Origin: an uncultured Acidobacteriota bacterium
GTDB taxonomy: Bacteria > Acidobacteriota > Thermoanaerobaculia > Multivoradales > SZUA-115
Assembly: GCA_937867335.1 (NCBI GenBank)
Contig: CALMKX010000370.1
Location: forward strand, 1 to 38,893
Reading direction: 5' to 3'
Length of the DNA stretch: 38,893 nt
The first letter of the stretch is position 1. Every line of letters starts with the position of its first letter. Shown one piece after another: positions 4,788 through 12,277 of this stretch. The notes beneath the pieces are model-generated. The model was not told the origin of the DNA. It ran no database searches and worked only from the letters and a program-made list of their open reading frames with translations. A program made the position numbers and the translations under genes.

Positions 4788-6542
4788 CTAGCCGCCGCCC
4801 GAGCCAGGCCGAAAGCGGAAGGCGAGGGGCTTGCCGGCAGCGGGGGACTCGAGCTTCAGCTGGTAGAGGCGAACCTCGGGGCCGTCCCACCACATGCCGT
4901 GGACGGCAATGGGACGGCCAAGGGGGAAGTCGAGGATCACGCTGCCGGAGGGCTCGAGGGTTCGGCGGGTCGGAGCCCGGCCGTTCAGGGTGGCTTCGGC
5001 CGGGCCTCCGGGGAGGATCTCGAGCGTGAGCCCGGCGAGCTCGCTCGGGCTTCCCACCAGGAGCTCTCCTCGCGTAGCCCTGTCGAGCCGAAAACTGCGG
5101 CCGCCGTCCTCCACCCGCACCTCGGGGCCGAGCGGCTTCACCCAGAGCCCGTTGTGCGCCACATCCTCCTGGCCAGAGGGCTTGAGGTGGTCCTGGGTGG
5201 TCTCGTAGGGCAGCCAGGCCCGGGCCTGGGCCGAGACGTGGTGGTAGCCGCCGGCCGCGGTGGTGGGGAAGGCCCGGGGCTCGAGCCAGCTGGGGTAGAG
5301 GAAGGGCGCTGCGGCCAACGCCACCAAAGTCGGCAACAGCGGTGAGCGGGGCTTGCCGGGCAGGAACCAGAAGGCCGGGTAGAGAGGCAGGAAGTAGCGG
5401 TTGGCCACGGCCGCGCCGCCGCCCCAGAAGTTGAACGGGCGGATGGCGACGAAGACGGCCGTGGCGGCGAGAGCTGCGAGCGGCAGGGCCCAGCGGCCTC
5501 GGCCCGGTCGATAGGCGAGAAGGCCCAGGACGAGGGGCAGATAGTAGGGCAACAGGCCCACGTTCCGGCCGAGCAGCAGGTAAAGGGCGTTGTAGGCGCT
5601 CAGATGGGCATCGAAGCCGTAGGGCAGGAGATGCCCCGGGGCGATCCAGGAGCCCCGTCCCCGGCTCGCCACCAGGCTCGGCCAGCTTTCCTTGAGGTCC
5701 ACCAGGGGAAAGCCAGTGTACGAGTAGAAACCCAGGCGTTCGCCGCCGTAGGGGGTCCAGCTGCCGTTCCAGAAGTAGCTGCCGGCCACCGCCACCAGCC
5801 CGACGGTTGCTGCCCCCAAGCCGAGAGCCATCCAGCCGCTCCGGCGCTCTGACTTCGGCACCGCGAGGAGCCCCGGCAGGAAGAGGGCACCGTACTGAGG
5901 GCGGGCGGCGGCCGCCACGGCCAGCATCGCACCTGTCGCGGCCCATCGCCACGGGCGCCGGCCCGCCGGGGCCGGCTCGCCCCAGATCTCTGGCAAGGCT
6001 CCTGCGGTCTGCGCTTCCGGGAGGTTGGCGAGAGCCAGGGCGAGGGCGCCGGTGCACATCAGGAAGAGATCCATGTGGGCCCAGAAGACCTGGGTGAAAG
6101 CTACCGAGGCGAACACGAAGACCGCCACCCAGAGCGGTGCGGCCCTGCCCACGGTGTGGCGCAGAGTAAACGCGCTGCACAGCGCTGCGGCGGCGAGAAG
6201 CAGGGCGTTGGCCACCGACGGGCCGCGGGTGGGGGAGATCCGGACGAAGGGCGCGAGGTAGAGCGAATAGGAGGCCGGCTTGCCGAAGGTGAAGTGGGCT
6301 CCGCGATCCGGGCTCTGCAGGATCAGCCCCTCCGGGAGCCGACCCCAATGTTGCCGGAAGCGGTCGAAGTCGCGGCGCTCGTAGCGCAGATCGAAGTCGA
6401 AAGCCAGGCTTTCGGCCTGCATCAGGTAGGTGGCTTCATCGCCTACCAGGGCCGGCCAGGAGCGGCGATCGAAGCTCGCTGCTGCAACCAGCAAGGCTGC
6501 CAGCAAGGCTCCCAGAACAACCCAGCTGAACCGCGCGGTCAT
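4788..6542 (-). CDS. GT-C membrane glycosyltransferase, family 39/ArnT-like
   Basis: A 584-residue protein with an N-terminal membrane helix, then the loop motif GDEATYLMQAESL near residues 34-46. The acidic DE there is the expected catalytic site of polyprenyl-phosphate-dependent GT-C enzymes, which act on the periplasmic side. At least nine further hydrophobic segments follow, then a soluble C-terminal beta-rich part from about residue 430. Substrate and acceptor are not readable. The ATG lies 12 bases after the TetR gene stop, so it is probably the last gene of the operon starting at 9282. It converges with the msbA-like gene, with a ten-base gap and no hairpin between. Confidence 0.75.
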   Translation of the reverse strand: MTARFSWVVLGALLAALLVAAASFDRRSWPALVGDEATYLMQAESLAFDFDLRYERRDFDRFRQHWGRLPEGLILQSPDRGAHFTFGKPASYSLYLAPFVRISPTRGPSVANALLLAAAALCSAFTLRHTVGRAAPLWVAVFVFASVAFTQVFWAHMDLFLMCTGALALALANLPEAQTAGALPEIWGEPAPAGRRPWRWAATGAMLAVAAAARPQYGALFLPGLLAVPKSERRSGWMALGLGAATVGLVAVAGSYFWNGSWTPYGGERLGFYSYTGFPLVDLKESWPSLVASRGRGSWIAPGHLLPYGFDAHLSAYNALYLLLGRNVGLLPYYLPLVLGLLAYRPGRGRWALPLAALAATAVFVAIRPFNFWGGGAAVANRYFLPLYPAFWFLPGKPRSPLLPTLVALAAAPFLYPSWLEPRAFPTTAAGGYHHVSAQARAWLPYETTQDHLKPSGQEDVAHNGLWVKPLGPEVRVEDGGRSFRLDRATRGELLVGSPSELAGLTLEILPGGPAEATLNGRAPTRRTLEPSGSVILDFPLGRPIAVHGMWWDGPEVRLYQLKLESPAAGKPLAFRFRPGSGGG

Positions 6543-6554
6543 CGCCGGCGGATT

Positions 6555-7223
6555 CTATCGCCCGCCTGGCAGCCAGCCGCGCAGCCAGGCGGCGAGTGCC
6601 CCTTGGAGCTCGCTCTGGAAGTCGAGCTCGAAGGCGGCGAGCGCCGGGTCGCTCGCCAGGGCCTGGCGCTTCGCAGGAGGCGGTGCTGCGAGCTGGGAGA
6701 GCCCGAGAATGAGGGCGTAGGCGCGGCGAAGGAAGCGGAGGCCGTCCCCGGCCGAGAGGGCAGGCACTCGAGCCTCCAGCCAGGCCGCGGTGGGAGCCAG
6801 CGCCGACAGCAGCCGGCGCTTGAAGTGGGCGATCTGCTCCGGGTCCGTGCTGGTTTCGAGGCTCGGCTCGAGCAAGCTCAGCAGACGAATCAGCTCGGGC
6901 TTTGAAACCAGCGTCGAAGCGATCGCTGCGGCCAGAGCTCCGGGGTCCCCTCCCGCGCCGGGAGCTTCCGCCAGCGCGGGTGTGAGGCCCGCGAGCCAGT
7001 CCGCGAGCCGCTCGAGGAGCAACTCCAGAAACAGTGCCTCCTTCGAGGGGAAATAGCGGTAGGTGGCCCCTTTGGCCACGCCGGCGCGCCGGGCGATCGC
7101 GGCCATGGTCACCTGAGCGTAGGGCGCCTCGGCCAGGCAGTCGGACGCCGCGGCCAGCAGTTGGGCTCGGCGCTGGCCCTTGGCTTCGGGCGCTCGGGCG
7201 CGCCGGAAAGGCAGCTCGGTCAC
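6555..7223 (-). CDS. TetR/AcrR family transcriptional regulator
   Basis: A 222-residue protein with an N-terminal helix-turn-helix (about residues 15-60) that includes VTMAAIARRAGVAKGATYRYFPSKEALF in broken form: the recognition region runs TMAAIARRAG then VAKGATYRYF. A helical ligand-binding domain follows to the end, with no recognisable ligand pocket. The GTG start at 7223 overlaps the dehydrogenase stop as GTGA, so its level is tied to the operon. Autoregulation is likely, because the operon promoter contains a 20-bp inverted repeat (9298-9317) of the size and symmetry TetR dimers bind. That this protein binds that site is inference. Confidence 0.92.
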   Translation of the reverse strand: MTELPFRRARAPEAKGQRRAQLLAAASDCLAEAPYAQVTMAAIARRAGVAKGATYRYFPSKEALFLELLLERLADWLAGLTPALAEAPGAGGDPGALAAAIASTLVSKPELIRLLSLLEPSLETSTDPEQIAHFKRRLLSALAPTAAWLEARVPALSAGDGLRFLRRAYALILGLSQLAAPPPAKRQALASDPALAAFELDFQSELQGALAAWLRGWLPGGR

Positions 7224-8092
7224 CGAGGGAGTCCGGGCCTGGGATAGTTGGTAGAGAGGAAGCTGTCCCACAGGGTATCCGGCACCAGCCGCCGCAGCCG
7301 CATCAGCAGATGTGCCGAGCCGGTGACTTTGTAGCGTGGACGCGGGCTCCGGGCTTCCACCGCCCGCTGAACCACCTTGGCAACGTCGTCCGGGTCCCCG
7401 GCGAGCCAGGAGAGAGGGCCCTTGTGGTAGGACTCCTCGGTGAGCCGCGCCACGGCCCGGTTGAGCCCATCGTAAGGAGAGCTCTCGCCCCCCAGCTCTC
7501 CCATGCTGCCCACGGCGGTGCCCGAGAACTCGGTGCGGATCAGCCCGGGCTGAATCAGGCTGACGGCGATACCGAAGCCGCCCACCTCGAAGCGGAGGGC
7601 GTCGGAGAGAGCCTCTAGAGCGTACTTGGTGGCGTGGTAGACGCCGCCTCCCGGGAACGTGAGGATGCCCCCCATGGAGCCGATGTTGACGATGCGGCCC
7701 CAGCCTTGGCGCCTCATCGCCGGCAGCACCAGCTGGGTGAGCCGGATCAGGCCGAAGACGTTGGTCTCGAACTGCTGGCGGACTCGGTCGAGGGGAATCT
7801 CTTCCACTGCGCCGGATTGACCGTAGCCAGCGTTGTTCACCAGCACATCGATCGCGCCATGGGTCCTTTCCACCTCCGCGACGGCCTGCCTCATCGAAGC
7901 TTCGTCGTTGACGTCGAGGGCGAGAGCCTTGCAGCCGGCGGCGGTGAGCTCGTTCAGGGAGTCGGGCCGACGGGCGGTGGCGTAGACCGCATGTCCTGCG
8001 CGGGCAAGGCGCAAGGCGGTCGCCTTGCCGATGCCGGAGGAGCAGCCGGTGATGAGGATGGCTTTCGAGGGAGTGGCGTGGCTCATGGTCAT
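7220..8092 (-). CDS. Short-chain dehydrogenase/reductase (SDR)
   Basis: A 290-residue classical SDR. The cofactor motif TGCSSGIG is at residues 15-22, followed by ATARRP, which favours NADP(H). DVND, NNAG near residue 88, a serine in NIGSMGG, and the catalytic YHATK with Tyr152 and Lys156 complete the active site. The substrate is unknown; the long C-terminal segment is like SDRs acting on lipids or steroids. The ATG at 8092 overlaps the stop of the upstream yellow-like gene (ATGA); a second ATG at 8086 is possible. The stop overlaps the TetR start. This tight double overlap argues that all three work in one process. Confidence 0.93.
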   Translation of the reverse strand: MTMSHATPSKAILITGCSSGIGKATALRLARAGHAVYATARRPDSLNELTAAGCKALALDVNDEASMRQAVAEVERTHGAIDVLVNNAGYGQSGAVEEIPLDRVRQQFETNVFGLIRLTQLVLPAMRRQGWGRIVNIGSMGGILTFPGGGVYHATKYALEALSDALRFEVGGFGIAVSLIQPGLIRTEFSGTAVGSMGELGGESSPYDGLNRAVARLTEESYHKGPLSWLAGDPDDVAKVVQRAVEARSPRPRYKVTGSAHLLMRLRRLVPDTLWDSFLSTNYPRPGLPR

Positions 8093-9282
8093 GGGCTCTC
8101 GGTCGGGAAGGGTCGGGAGGGAGCGAGAGTGAGCATCTCGGGGCTTGCCGGCGCGTTGCCGCCGGGCTGAGGGAATCGGAAGACGAAGTACGGCGCCCGG
8201 CTCCGGATGTGGCCACGGGTGCGCAGCAGGTGGTCCGGAATGGCGCTGTCCGCGAGGTAGACCCAACCGTCCTGGCCGATCGCCAGGTTGTCCGCCCAGC
8301 GGATTCGCGGCGAGCGGATCAGAGTCTCGAGCTCGCCGCCAGCTCCCGAGCGCAGCACGGCGCCGTGATCGACATCGGTGATCAGCACTCGACCCTGGGC
8401 GTCGCAGGCGATGCCGTCGGAGAGTGGCTTGGGGCCGACCCTCTCGGGCGCGGGGCTCGCACTGGAAGGAAGTTTGGCGATGGCCGCCGTCGGCATTCGG
8501 AAGAGTGAATCGTGGTTCATCGCTGCGTAGTAAAGCCAGCTCCGGTTCGGAGAGAGGGCGATGCCGTCCACTCCCACCTTGAGGCTGCCCAGCCCGGCGA
8601 AGAAGACCATCTCCTTGGTCGGCGTGCGAATCAGCCAGTCCTGGGCTCGCACGGAAGCATCGCGCTCGAGGACGCGCTGGCAGACGTCGCTCGCCAGGTC
8701 GTAGATCACGATCGCCGGCCGGCGGCCCCAGAAAGAGGCGTCCGCGATGTAGAGCCGCCCGGCCGTGGCGTCGACCGCGAGGTCCTGGAAAAAAGCGCCG
8801 ATCGGCGCGCAATCCCGGCGGAAGCTGTGGTCGAAGGCAAGTGCCCCGCTCGCTAGGTCGAAAGCCAGGACTCGGGGCGGGCCGGTGGCATGCTGGTGGT
8901 GATCGATCACCCAGAGACGGTCCTGACCGTCAACGGTGAGGCCCAGGGGGGTGTTGAACAGCTGCTCCTGGAGCGCTGGGGAGGGGAAGGGAACCGCCTT
9001 GCCGGCCGCCCATTCGAAGAGCCTGGGCCCCGGCGGCCGGCTCTCCGGATGGAGGGTGTAGAACACTCGGCCGGTGCGAGAAACAGCGACATTGCCGATC
9101 GGCTCCGGGCTGGAGACCACCTCCTCGAGTGCCGACTCGGGCACCAGGGAGGCCGTTGTCAGGTCTCGATAGGGCTGGCCGGGAGCGTAGTTCAGGCGGA
9201 GGAAGAGGGCCAGGCCCGCTAGAAGCAGAGCGAGGAAGACGATCAACCGGCGAAGCGGCCGGGAAGGAGTCTTGGTGACCAT
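8089..9282 (-). CDS. Major royal jelly/yellow-like beta-propeller protein, membrane-anchored
   Basis: About 397 residues: a short basic N-terminus, one hydrophobic helix (about residues 13-28) and a large extracytoplasmic domain. It has the hallmarks of the MRJP/yellow family: GLTVDGQDRLWVIDHH, FQDLAVDATAGRLYIADA, IVIYDLAS, and VDGIALSPNRSWLYYAAM, spaced as in a six-bladed propeller. Bacterial members are of uncertain function; SMP-30/gluconolactonase-type propellers are a more distant alternative. The start at 9282 was chosen because the promoter just upstream predicts transcription beginning on this ATG; ATGs at 9291 and 9333 lie within or before the promoter. It is the first gene of the SDR-TetR-glycosyltransferase operon. 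Confidence 0.8.
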   Translation of the reverse strand: MVTKTPSRPLRRLIVFLALLLAGLALFLRLNYAPGQPYRDLTTASLVPESALEEVVSSPEPIGNVAVSRTGRVFYTLHPESRPPGPRLFEWAAGKAVPFPSPALQEQLFNTPLGLTVDGQDRLWVIDHHQHATGPPRVLAFDLASGALAFDHSFRRDCAPIGAFFQDLAVDATAGRLYIADASFWGRRPAIVIYDLASDVCQRVLERDASVRAQDWLIRTPTKEMVFFAGLGSLKVGVDGIALSPNRSWLYYAAMNHDSLFRMPTAAIAKLPSSASPAPERVGPKPLSDGIACDAQGRVLITDVDHGAVLRSGAGGELETLIRSPRIRWADNLAIGQDGWVYLADSAIPDHLLRTRGHIRSRAPYFVFRFPQPGGNAPASPEMLTLAPSRPFPTESP

Positions 9283-9289
9283 GGGTCGC

Positions 9290-9318
9290 ATATTAGGTGA
9301 CCAGCGGTCGCTAGTCAA
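9290..9318 (-). promoter_or_regulatory. Strong promoter with embedded inverted-repeat operator, leaderless start
   Basis: On the minus strand, -35 TTGACT (9318-9313), a 17-bp spacer and -10 TAATAT (9295-9290) are close to the sigma-70 consensus. Transcription would start about seven bases on, at the ATG at 9282, giving a leaderless mRNA. An inverted repeat, TGACCAGCGGTCGCTAGTCA on the plus strand (9298-9317), covers the spacer and part of the -35 box, with 16 of 20 positions symmetric. Two copies of GGTGACC (9274-9280 and 9296-9302) lie 22 bp apart. A TetR-type repressor bound here would block RNA polymerase. Confidence 0.7.
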
Positions 9319-9461: not shown

Positions 9462-9851
9462 ATGAGACGCACCTTCCTCCCCATCTTCGGCTTACTCGCT
9501 CTCGGCTCCCTGGCCTTGCCGGCGCTGGCCGCCCCCGTGACGGTGACCATCACCGGACCGGCTTCGGTCACCGTCCCCTACGGCTGCCAGAACGTCACCT
9601 TCACCGGATCCGCGACGGGTGGCACCCCTCCCTACGTGCTCTACGCATGGACGAAGAACGGCGCCTCGGTGGGCACCAACTCGGCCACTCTGGTCCTCAC
9701 CTATTGCTCCGTCCAGGGGCAGTTCTCTCAGTTCAACGACACCATCGGGCTGACTGTCACCGACAGCAACGGGCGAGAGGGGAGCAAGACCAAGACCCTC
9801 ACGGTGATCCTCGAAGGTTGTGATTCGAGGGGAAATAACTGCGCCGGCTGA
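9462..9851 (+). CDS. Small exported Ig/PKD-like protein
   Basis: A 129-residue protein with a signal peptide (cleavage likely after ALA, near residue 23). One beta-sandwich-like domain follows, with GPASVTVPYGC, GTPPYVLYAWTKNG and IGLTVTDSNGR, typical of Ig-like or PKD-type domains. Four cysteines (in YGCQ, TYCSV, EGCDS and NNCAG) may form disulfides outside the cytoplasm. The ATG has a good ribosome binding site, AGGAGG, five bases ahead. It stands alone and is followed by a strong hairpin at 9870-9909. Function unknown; a single-domain secreted adhesin or inhibitor is possible but unsupported. Confidence 0.8.
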   Translation: MRRTFLPIFGLLALGSLALPALAAPVTVTITGPASVTVPYGCQNVTFTGSATGGTPPYVLYAWTKNGASVGTNSATLVLTYCSVQGQFSQFNDTIGLTVTDSNGREGSKTKTLTVILEGCDSRGNNCAG

Positions 9852-10101: not shown

Positions 10102-10689
10102 ATGACGCAGGAAGCCGCGAAAGAGACTGACGAAGAGCTGGTCCGCGCGGTCCTCGCGGGAGATCGAGACCGCTTCGGCGATCTGGTCGCCCGCTACCAG
10201 AGCCGCTTGGTGAACTACCTCTTCCGGCTCCTGCGCAGCAGTGACGATGCTCATGATCTGGCCCAGGAGGTGTTCCTGCGGATCTACCAGGCGCTCGATC
10301 GCTACGATCCCACGTACCGCTTCTCGACGTGGATCTTCCGGGTAGCGCAGAACGCGGCCATCGATCAGATCCGGAAGCGCCGGTTGCGGCTGGTGCCGCT
10401 GGTGAGGCCGGGCCAGGGGGATTCGGAAGGGGTGGAGCTGGAGCTGCCGAGTGACGACCGCGGGCCCTACGGTCATCTCAGGAACGTCGAGCGTGGCGAG
10501 GCGGTGCAGGCGGCGATCGATGCGTTGCCTTGGGAGTATCGAGAGCTGGTGGTGCTGCGGCACTACGGCGAGCTTTCCTACGAGGAGATCGCCCAGCTCA
10601 AGCGGATGCCGCTCGGAACCGTGAAGAACAAGCTCTTCCGGGGCCGGCAGATTTTGAAAGAGCGACTGCAGTCGTACCTGACGGATTGA
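10102..10689 (+). CDS. ECF (RpoE-like) sigma factor
   Basis: A 195-residue two-domain sigma factor. Region 2 spans about residues 25-95, with the core-binding stretch DDAHDLAQEVFLRIYQAL and the -10 recognition part RFSTWIFRVAQNAAIDQIRKRR. A linker rich in acidic residues follows, then region 4 at about 135-190, with ALPWEYRELVVLRHY and the helix-turn-helix SYEEIAQLKRMPLGTVKNKLFRGR. Length is normal for RpoE/SigW-like ECF proteins. It is followed 28 bases later by a membrane protein placed and shaped like an anti-sigma factor, then a bactofilin-like membrane protein. An envelope stress role is likely by context but the signal is unknown. Confidence 0.95.
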   Translation: MTQEAAKETDEELVRAVLAGDRDRFGDLVARYQSRLVNYLFRLLRSSDDAHDLAQEVFLRIYQALDRYDPTYRFSTWIFRVAQNAAIDQIRKRRLRLVPLVRPGQGDSEGVELELPSDDRGPYGHLRNVERGEAVQAAIDALPWEYRELVVLRHYGELSYEEIAQLKRMPLGTVKNKLFRGRQILKERLQSYLTD

Positions 10690-10717
10690 GTCCGAGTTCT
10701 TGCGGGAGGCGAAGCAG

Positions 10718-11332
10718 ATGAAGCACACCCATCGAGACGAGCTCCGGGAGTGGCTCTACCTGAGACCGGCAAGTGAGCTCGCCCCGGGGCAGCAGGCAGA
10801 GCTGGAGCAGGCCTGCGCCAGCGATGCTGAGCTCGCCGCCGAGCGGGACCAGATCGAGCGCATGGACGTGCTGCTGGCTGCGGAGCTGCTGGCGGTGCGA
10901 CCCAACTTCCGGCAGGCGGTGATGAGCAATCTGCCCCCCGCCGGCTGGGAGGCCCAGCACCCCCGAACCTGGAAGTGGGCCATGGTTCTGCTGCTCGCGC
11001 TCGCCGGCGGCTCGGCTGCGCTGCTCGGAGTGGGTTCAGCGAGGCTGTCGAGCGAGGGGGCTTTCGTGGGGGCCTTCGCTGCTGTTGCGGACCTCTTCAA
11101 GAGCGCGGCCCTTGCCGGCGCAGGGCTCCTGGCAGCCAGCTGGAAGGGCCTGGGAATGACGCTCTCGCACCTTGCCGACGGCTCGAAGCTCACGGCGATC
11201 ACCCTGGCGGTGACGGCGCTCTGCCTCAATGGACTCTTCTTCGTACTCTGGCGTTCGAGCCGTCGCTCCGAAGTGCCATCGCTCGCGGGTCGGGGCGAGG
11301 GCAGTCTGCCGCCGGCAGAGCCCGGAAGCTGA
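10718..11332 (+). CDS. Anti-sigma-factor-like membrane protein without zinc motif
   Basis: A 204-residue protein from the ATG at 10718, which has GGGAGG upstream; a TTG at 10700 would add six residues but overlaps that site. The N-terminal 80 residues are soluble, helical and charged (RDELREWLYLRPASEL, then AELEQACASDAELAAERDQIERM), as expected of an anti-sigma domain. The HxxxCxxC zinc motif of the common ZAS class is absent. Hydrophobic segments lie near 86-105, 125-145 and 165-185, leaving a short tail. Being directly behind the ECF gene, it probably holds that sigma factor at the membrane. Identification rests on context and layout more than on motif. Confidence 0.75.
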   Translation: MKHTHRDELREWLYLRPASELAPGQQAELEQACASDAELAAERDQIERMDVLLAAELLAVRPNFRQAVMSNLPPAGWEAQHPRTWKWAMVLLLALAGGSAALLGVGSARLSSEGAFVGAFAAVADLFKSAALAGAGLLAASWKGLGMTLSHLADGSKLTAITLAVTALCLNGLFFVLWRSSRRSEVPSLAGRGEGSLPPAEPGS

Positions 11333-11347: not shown

Positions 11348-12277
11348 TTGCGACCGCCCCTCCTTCCTTGCTGGGCCGTTCTCTCCTTCCTTCTGGCCGC
11401 CGCATCTCCGGGTCGCGCGGCCGGCGACTCTCGTCCCCCGGCGCTGGTGATCGAGGCCGGGAGCGTTGCCCGTCACCAGGTGGTCGCGGTGGGGCGGGAC
11501 CTCAATATCGCTGGGCAGGTGGAAGCGGACGTGGCCGCCATGAACGGTGCCGTGACGGTGACCGGCGAGGTGAGCGGGGACCTGATCGTGCTCGGCGGCG
11601 ATGTCTTTCTCGCCGCCACCGCCCGGATGGGCGGCGACGTCTTCGTGCTCGGCGGCACTCTCACGGAATCCTCCGGTTCCAGGGTGGCCGGGCGCTCGGT
11701 GGCGTATCCCGACGCCTCGTCCGCCTGGTTGGCCCTGCTCGAAGCGCCCACGCTGGGCCTCTCGGCCACTTCCCCTTTGATCCTCGGAGCCAAGCTCGCC
11801 CTGCTCGCAGCCTGGCTGCTCTTGACCTTGGTGCTGTTCGCCGCCAGCGGGCGGCAGGTGCTCGCCACCTCCGAGAGGGCGGCGGCGGAGCCCTTCCGCA
11901 GCTTCTCGGTGGGCTTCACCGGCGTGCTGGCGATGACGCTGACGGCCCTTCTGTTCAGCCTCTTCGCGGCGGCGCTGGTGGGTATCCCCCTGCTGGTGCT
12001 GGTCGTGCTCTTCGCCCTGATCTTGAAGCTCTGGGGGCTGGTGGGGGTGTTCCACGCCTTCGGCAGCTTCGTGGCCCGGCGCCTCGCCAGACGGCGTTTG
12101 CCACCGCTCAACGCCGCAGTGGTCGGCCTCCTGGTGCTGGGCGCGATCAAGTTGATTCCGTGGATCGGGCTGCTCGCCTGGCATGTGGCGAGCTTCATCG
12201 GTGTGGGGGCTGCCCTCACCACCAAGCTCGGCCGCGAGGAGCCCTGGTTCGATCTCGCGGTGGCCCCCAGCCGCTGA
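11348..12277 (+). CDS. Bactofilin-like beta-repeat protein with membrane domain
   Basis: About 309 residues. A TTG start follows AGGAGGAG at a good distance, 15 bases after the anti-sigma stop. The order is signal peptide to about residue 25, then a right-handed beta-helix-like repeat region (about 35-125) with NIAGQVEADVAAMNG, GEVSGDLIVLGGDVF and MGGDVFVLGG, as in polymer-forming bactofilin/CcmA-like proteins. Three or four membrane helices follow (about 145-165, 195-235, 258-285). The leading signal puts the repeats outside the cytoplasm, unlike cytosolic bactofilins. It is the third gene of the sigma/anti-sigma operon, so it may be part of the sensed or regulated envelope function. It ends just before a bidirectional terminator. 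Confidence 0.75.
   Translation: MRPPLLPCWAVLSFLLAAASPGRAAGDSRPPALVIEAGSVARHQVVAVGRDLNIAGQVEADVAAMNGAVTVTGEVSGDLIVLGGDVFLAATARMGGDVFVLGGTLTESSGSRVAGRSVAYPDASSAWLALLEAPTLGLSATSPLILGAKLALLAAWLLLTLVLFAASGRQVLATSERAAAEPFRSFSVGFTGVLAMTLTALLFSLFAAALVGIPLLVLVVLFALILKLWGLVGVFHAFGSFVARRLARRRLPPLNAAVVGLLVLGAIKLIPWIGLLAWHVASFIGVGAALTTKLGREEPWFDLAVAPSR

Follow-up and report, generated by a model that had tools for sequence, protein, structure and literature searches.

In classical autorepressed TetR operons such as TetR/tetO, the operator lies within the promoter and the regulator gene is self-controlled. The locus described here, in a window of 38,893 nucleotides (the whole stretch of DNA analysed), shares with TetR/tetO an operator predicted within the promoter and a regulator gene that would be under its own control. 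It differs in that its TetR gene stands third in a co-directional operon, whereas the arrangement in TetR/tetO is divergent, and in carrying tandem 13-mers around the -10 box. In Thermus thermophilus, the TetR proteins SbtR (TTHA0167) and TTHB023 (PfmR) bind TGACYrnnyRGTCA and CTGACCGATCGGTCAG; there, too, TetR dimers occupy TGACY...RGTCA palindromes that overlap core promoters, and the TTHB023 promoter carries two sites, as does the operator predicted here (PMC7022988; PMC4948773). The Thermus sites described there are 14 bp long with an even centre, whereas those of the window and of all its relatives are 13 bp long with an N3 centre and fall outside the SbtR/PfmR type. Furthermore, the accessible text of the SbtR/PfmR literature contains no description of a fixed 21–23 bp tandem around the -10 box (PMC4948773; PMC7022988), and no tandem TetR operator of matching spacing was found in a literature search conducted mostly outside subscription journals. 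Matches between Thermus proteins in the PDB and relatives of P0003, the regulator of the present locus, lie mainly in the DNA-binding domain. The best solved-structure match, the TetR-family protein PDB 2zcx, aligns with P0003 and its relatives along almost their entire length, and the literature searched yielded no operator or ligand information for it. Set beside SbtR and TTHB023, the two-site element belongs to a known kind, distinguished by its site length and by how tightly its register is conserved.

The transcription unit comprises three minus-strand genes. The first (8089–9282) encodes an MRJP/SMP-30-like beta-propeller protein with an N-terminal membrane anchor, the second (7220–8092) a PRK06182-like short-chain dehydrogenase/reductase (SDR), and the third (6555–7223, GTG start) the TetR-family regulator P0003. 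Both junctions are 4-nt overlaps, ATGA between the propeller and SDR genes and GTGA between the SDR and TetR genes, so the sequence-only reading was right to place the TetR gene in the operon, where it is the third cistron of the transcription unit begun by the site-bearing promoter, as in autorepressed operons. P0003 scored 63.0 bits for TetR_N and 102.7 bits for TetR_C_34 (Pfam cut-offs 24 and 26.3), and both domains were matched by all 17 aligned relatives. The SDR-TetR gene pair recurs in two related genomes (G142 and G070), and the full propeller-SDR-TetR order in another (G141), whose contig ends within its first gene. On the minus strand at 4788–6542, starting 12 nt past the stop codon of the TetR gene, an open reading frame for a multi-pass membrane protein of 584 aa, without a match in the Pfam search, may represent a fourth operon gene. 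On the plus strand, a small secreted Ig/PKD-like protein of 129 aa (9462–9851), also without a Pfam match, is encoded divergently from the operon; beyond it, 10102–11332 holds an ECF-type sigma factor gene (Sigma70_r2, r4_2) and, close behind it, a membrane protein gene, whose product lacks a Pfam match and may by position be an anti-sigma factor; a further membrane protein gene comes next at 11348–12277.

The promoter of this operon, also recognized in the earlier reading, runs from 9318 to 9290 on the minus strand, with a -35 box TTGACT (9313–9318), a 17-bp spacer and a -10 box TAATAT (9290–9295), 9 of 12 positions agreeing with consensus. It was confirmed as the single sigma-70-like match between 6500 and 11500, where shuffled sequences gave 0.2 ± 0.4. 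A 16-bp direct repeat, overlooked earlier, was found across it, consisting of GGTGACCATGGGTCGC at 9274–9289 and GGTGACCAGCGGTCGC at 9296–9311 with a spacing of 22 bp, and each copy holds a 13-bp dyad of the form YGACY-N3-RGTCR. Predicted operator site 1, CGACCGCTGGTCA (9298–9310, minus strand), occupies the space between the -35 and -10 boxes; predicted site 2, CGACCCATGGTCA (9276–9288, minus strand), lies just past the -10 box, which falls in the 9-bp gap separating the two. Site 2 contains the ATG start codon as well as the predicted transcription start, and its centre, 9282, is the A of that ATG. Beyond the direct repeat itself, both sites rest on the genome search and on comparison with relatives. 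In the 5.56 Mb of the genome to which the window belongs, the exact tandem pair occurs in one place. With up to three mismatches allowed over both 13-mers at 22-bp spacing, all other places have three, and these represent background because the reversed control gave 37 places. The single 13-mer showed no genome-wide enrichment (15 places versus 59 for its reversed control), and therefore no wider regulon is claimed.

Conservation of the pair was followed through TetR homologues gathered from the class, the phylum and other bacteria, since the propeller protein returned few and distant matches as a search probe and the TetR protein proved the useful one. In the 1.34 Mb of fetched DNA, a search for two exact YGACY-N3-RGTCR copies spaced 20–24 bp apart yielded nine pairs, all at the promoter of a transcription unit containing a P0003 homologue and none elsewhere; simulated promoters gave 0 in 200,000. 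The nine carriers are the window and eight other genomes of the same phylum (G142, G070, G037, G107, G108, G345, G457 and G153). In 9/9 the register is retained, with 2 nt from the end of the -35 box to site 1, 1–2 nt from site 1 to the -10 box and 0–2 nt from the -10 box to site 2, while TTGACA or a close variant stands 2 nt from site 1 in the relatives as well. As is characteristic of TetR-type palindromic operators, a short dyad is conserved at orthologous promoters, here in nine genomes and in fixed register. On the evidence of these aligned promoters, the arrangement of TTGACA, site 1, -10 box and site 2 is a conserved composite element, which can be written TTGACA-nn-[TGACYnnnRGTCA]-nn-[-10]-n(0–2)-[TGACYnnnRGTCA], with a site spacing of 21–23 bp.

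In the TetR tree, the pairs are confined to a single side of 19 rows, supported at 100/99, ten of the rows with exact or near pairs and two with variants, while 0 of the 11 rows on the other side carry a pair. In G083 and G016 the recognition helix ends in FESR in place of F(P/T)(S/T)K; their sites are lettered differently in a similar 22–23 bp tandem, G083 having three GAACCGnCGGTT-type sites at 22-bp intervals upstream of its TetR homologue (locus L128, about 1655–1720) and G016 a pair of the GAACATCGTT type. In the G083 array, TTGACA lies on the opposite strand, with the layout kept and the letters different. In two further genomes (G292 and G238), one site is good and its partner degraded. 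In G153 (L201, 660–715), a third YGACY-N3-RGTCR follows 14 bp after the second and lies beyond the predicted start. Two Alcanivorax homologues carry one TGACC-CTT-GGTCA site ahead of an SDR-TetR pair. Upstream of the SDR gene in Alcanivorax and relatives (L010, L012 and L013), two TGACC/TAACY-N3-RGTTA-like sites were also seen with a separation of about 45 bp, or some four turns, not 22. No such pair was found near the TetR gene of the G018 and G024 homologues (42–46% identity), which may sit inside a longer operon, nor with the weak homologues at about 30–35% (L127, L129 and L132–L141), which lie on another side of the tree. First-gene orthologues in G096 and G107 were without a nearby SDR or TetR gene and without sites.

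These comparisons bear directly on the operator proposed in the sequence-only reading, a single 20-bp inverted repeat over the spacer and the -35 box with 16 of 20 positions symmetric. The repeat, TGACTAGCGACCGCTGGTCA, is indeed present at 9317–9298 on the minus strand, with 8 of 10 position pairs matching. Its symmetry alone is weak evidence, however, because 49 of the 38,874 20-mers of the window are equally symmetric, and in relatives only 4–6 of 10 positions pair in the corresponding 20-mers, as against 4 or 5 of 6 in the 13-mers. A genome-wide search with the 20-bp repeat, which had been suggested as a check, returned only its own site at 0–1 mismatch; this uniqueness is uninformative, since few matches are to be expected for any chosen pattern with 16 letters fixed. 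The dyad is a misregistered combination of site 1 and the -35 box, its left arm being just the TGAC of the -35 box, matched to GTCA, the right arm of site 1. It is thus very unlikely that this palindrome (9298–9317) is the operator, and the compact single-site switch drawn from it gives way to YGACY-N3-RGTCR in two copies around the -10 box, conserved in eight relatives. More generally, where the -35 box resembles a half-site, a palindrome found by eye can be misregistered.

Altogether, 9274–9318 is, with good confidence, a composite promoter-operator at which two dimers of the TetR_C_34 protein P0003 (6555–7223) would bracket the -10 box and repress their own operon. Negative autoregulation, as already suggested, stands as the best reading because the predicted operator forms part of the promoter of a TetR-encoding operon. 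In the proposed mechanism, two P0003 dimers would bind the two 13-bp YGACY-N3-RGTCR sites, perhaps cooperatively, and would lie on one face of the DNA, since 22 bp is about two helical turns. With site 1 in the spacer between the -35 and -10 boxes and site 2 over the transcription start and ATG, the -10 box would be clamped and RNA polymerase excluded. A small-molecule ligand at the C-terminal domain, possibly a compound that the SDR or the propeller protein uses or produces, would free the dimers, and their release would switch on the three-gene operon, regulator included. The kind of control is very probably that of an ordinary self-controlling switch, with two sites instead of one. For the uncharacterised TetR_C_34 clade, this provides a testable operator of 13 bp, present twice at 21–23 bp in fixed register to the -35 and -10 boxes, and a pattern of such specificity makes targets predictable across the phylum.

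Two other assignments of function to the same sites were weighed. The genome encodes at least one further TetR homologue and several TetR families use TGACC/GGTCA half-sites (PMC4948773; PMC7022988), so that another TetR-like regulator encoded elsewhere might bind both sites, with P0003 a passenger of the operon. This is quite improbable, given that the pair tracks the P0003 clade across genomes, even with different neighbouring genes (G037, G107, G108 and G345), and that a changed recognition helix goes with changed site letters. Activation from both sites is scarcely probable at all: the spacer is filled by site 1 and the start covered by site 2, where bound protein would be expected to block polymerase, and the promoters are otherwise near consensus (9–11 of 12). 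A few TetR proteins act as activators, a precedent that lends the activation reading some basis.

The ATG (9282–9280, minus strand) starts 7 nt downstream of the -10 box, and it is reasonably probable that a leaderless mRNA begins at A9282. Leaderless genes have been defined by a -10-like TANNNT some 12 bp ahead of the start codon with no Shine-Dalgarno (SD) sequence, and account for 13.3% of genes on average in Acidobacteria (PMC3160421). Here, TAATAT begins 13 bp before the ATG and no SD sequence was seen ahead of it. A leadered transcript starting upstream, with translation from the in-frame ATG 9291, TTG 9318 or GTG 9333, would be compatible with the predicted operator; the frame is open up to GTG 9333 and AGGAG precedes TTG 9318. 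It is nevertheless rather unlikely, as the conserved promoter layout sets the -10 box at 9290–9295, orthologues in G096 and G107 start near the same residue, and in 0.37 Mb of the same genome the distance from TANNNT to the start codon has its peak at 6 nt (9 versus a mean of 2.0 at distances outside 5–8). Over gaps of 5–8 nt, the same survey gave 17 in total versus 8 expected, a mild enrichment based on unrefined gene calls. Leaderlessness lies outside the conserved module, because in several relatives the first start codon is further from the -10 box. It is a plausible though tentative proposal that a two-dimer clamp on the -10 box is kept in the TetR_C_34 clade across the phylum and is fused here with a leaderless start, such that operator 2, transcription start and start codon are the same bases. 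One 13-bp word would then be read for repressor binding, polymerase start and ribosome entry. Many TetR genes of the class (L127, L129, L134 and L137–L141) likewise begin 6–8 nt after a TATNAT or TAGAAT box, in a leaderless-like manner.
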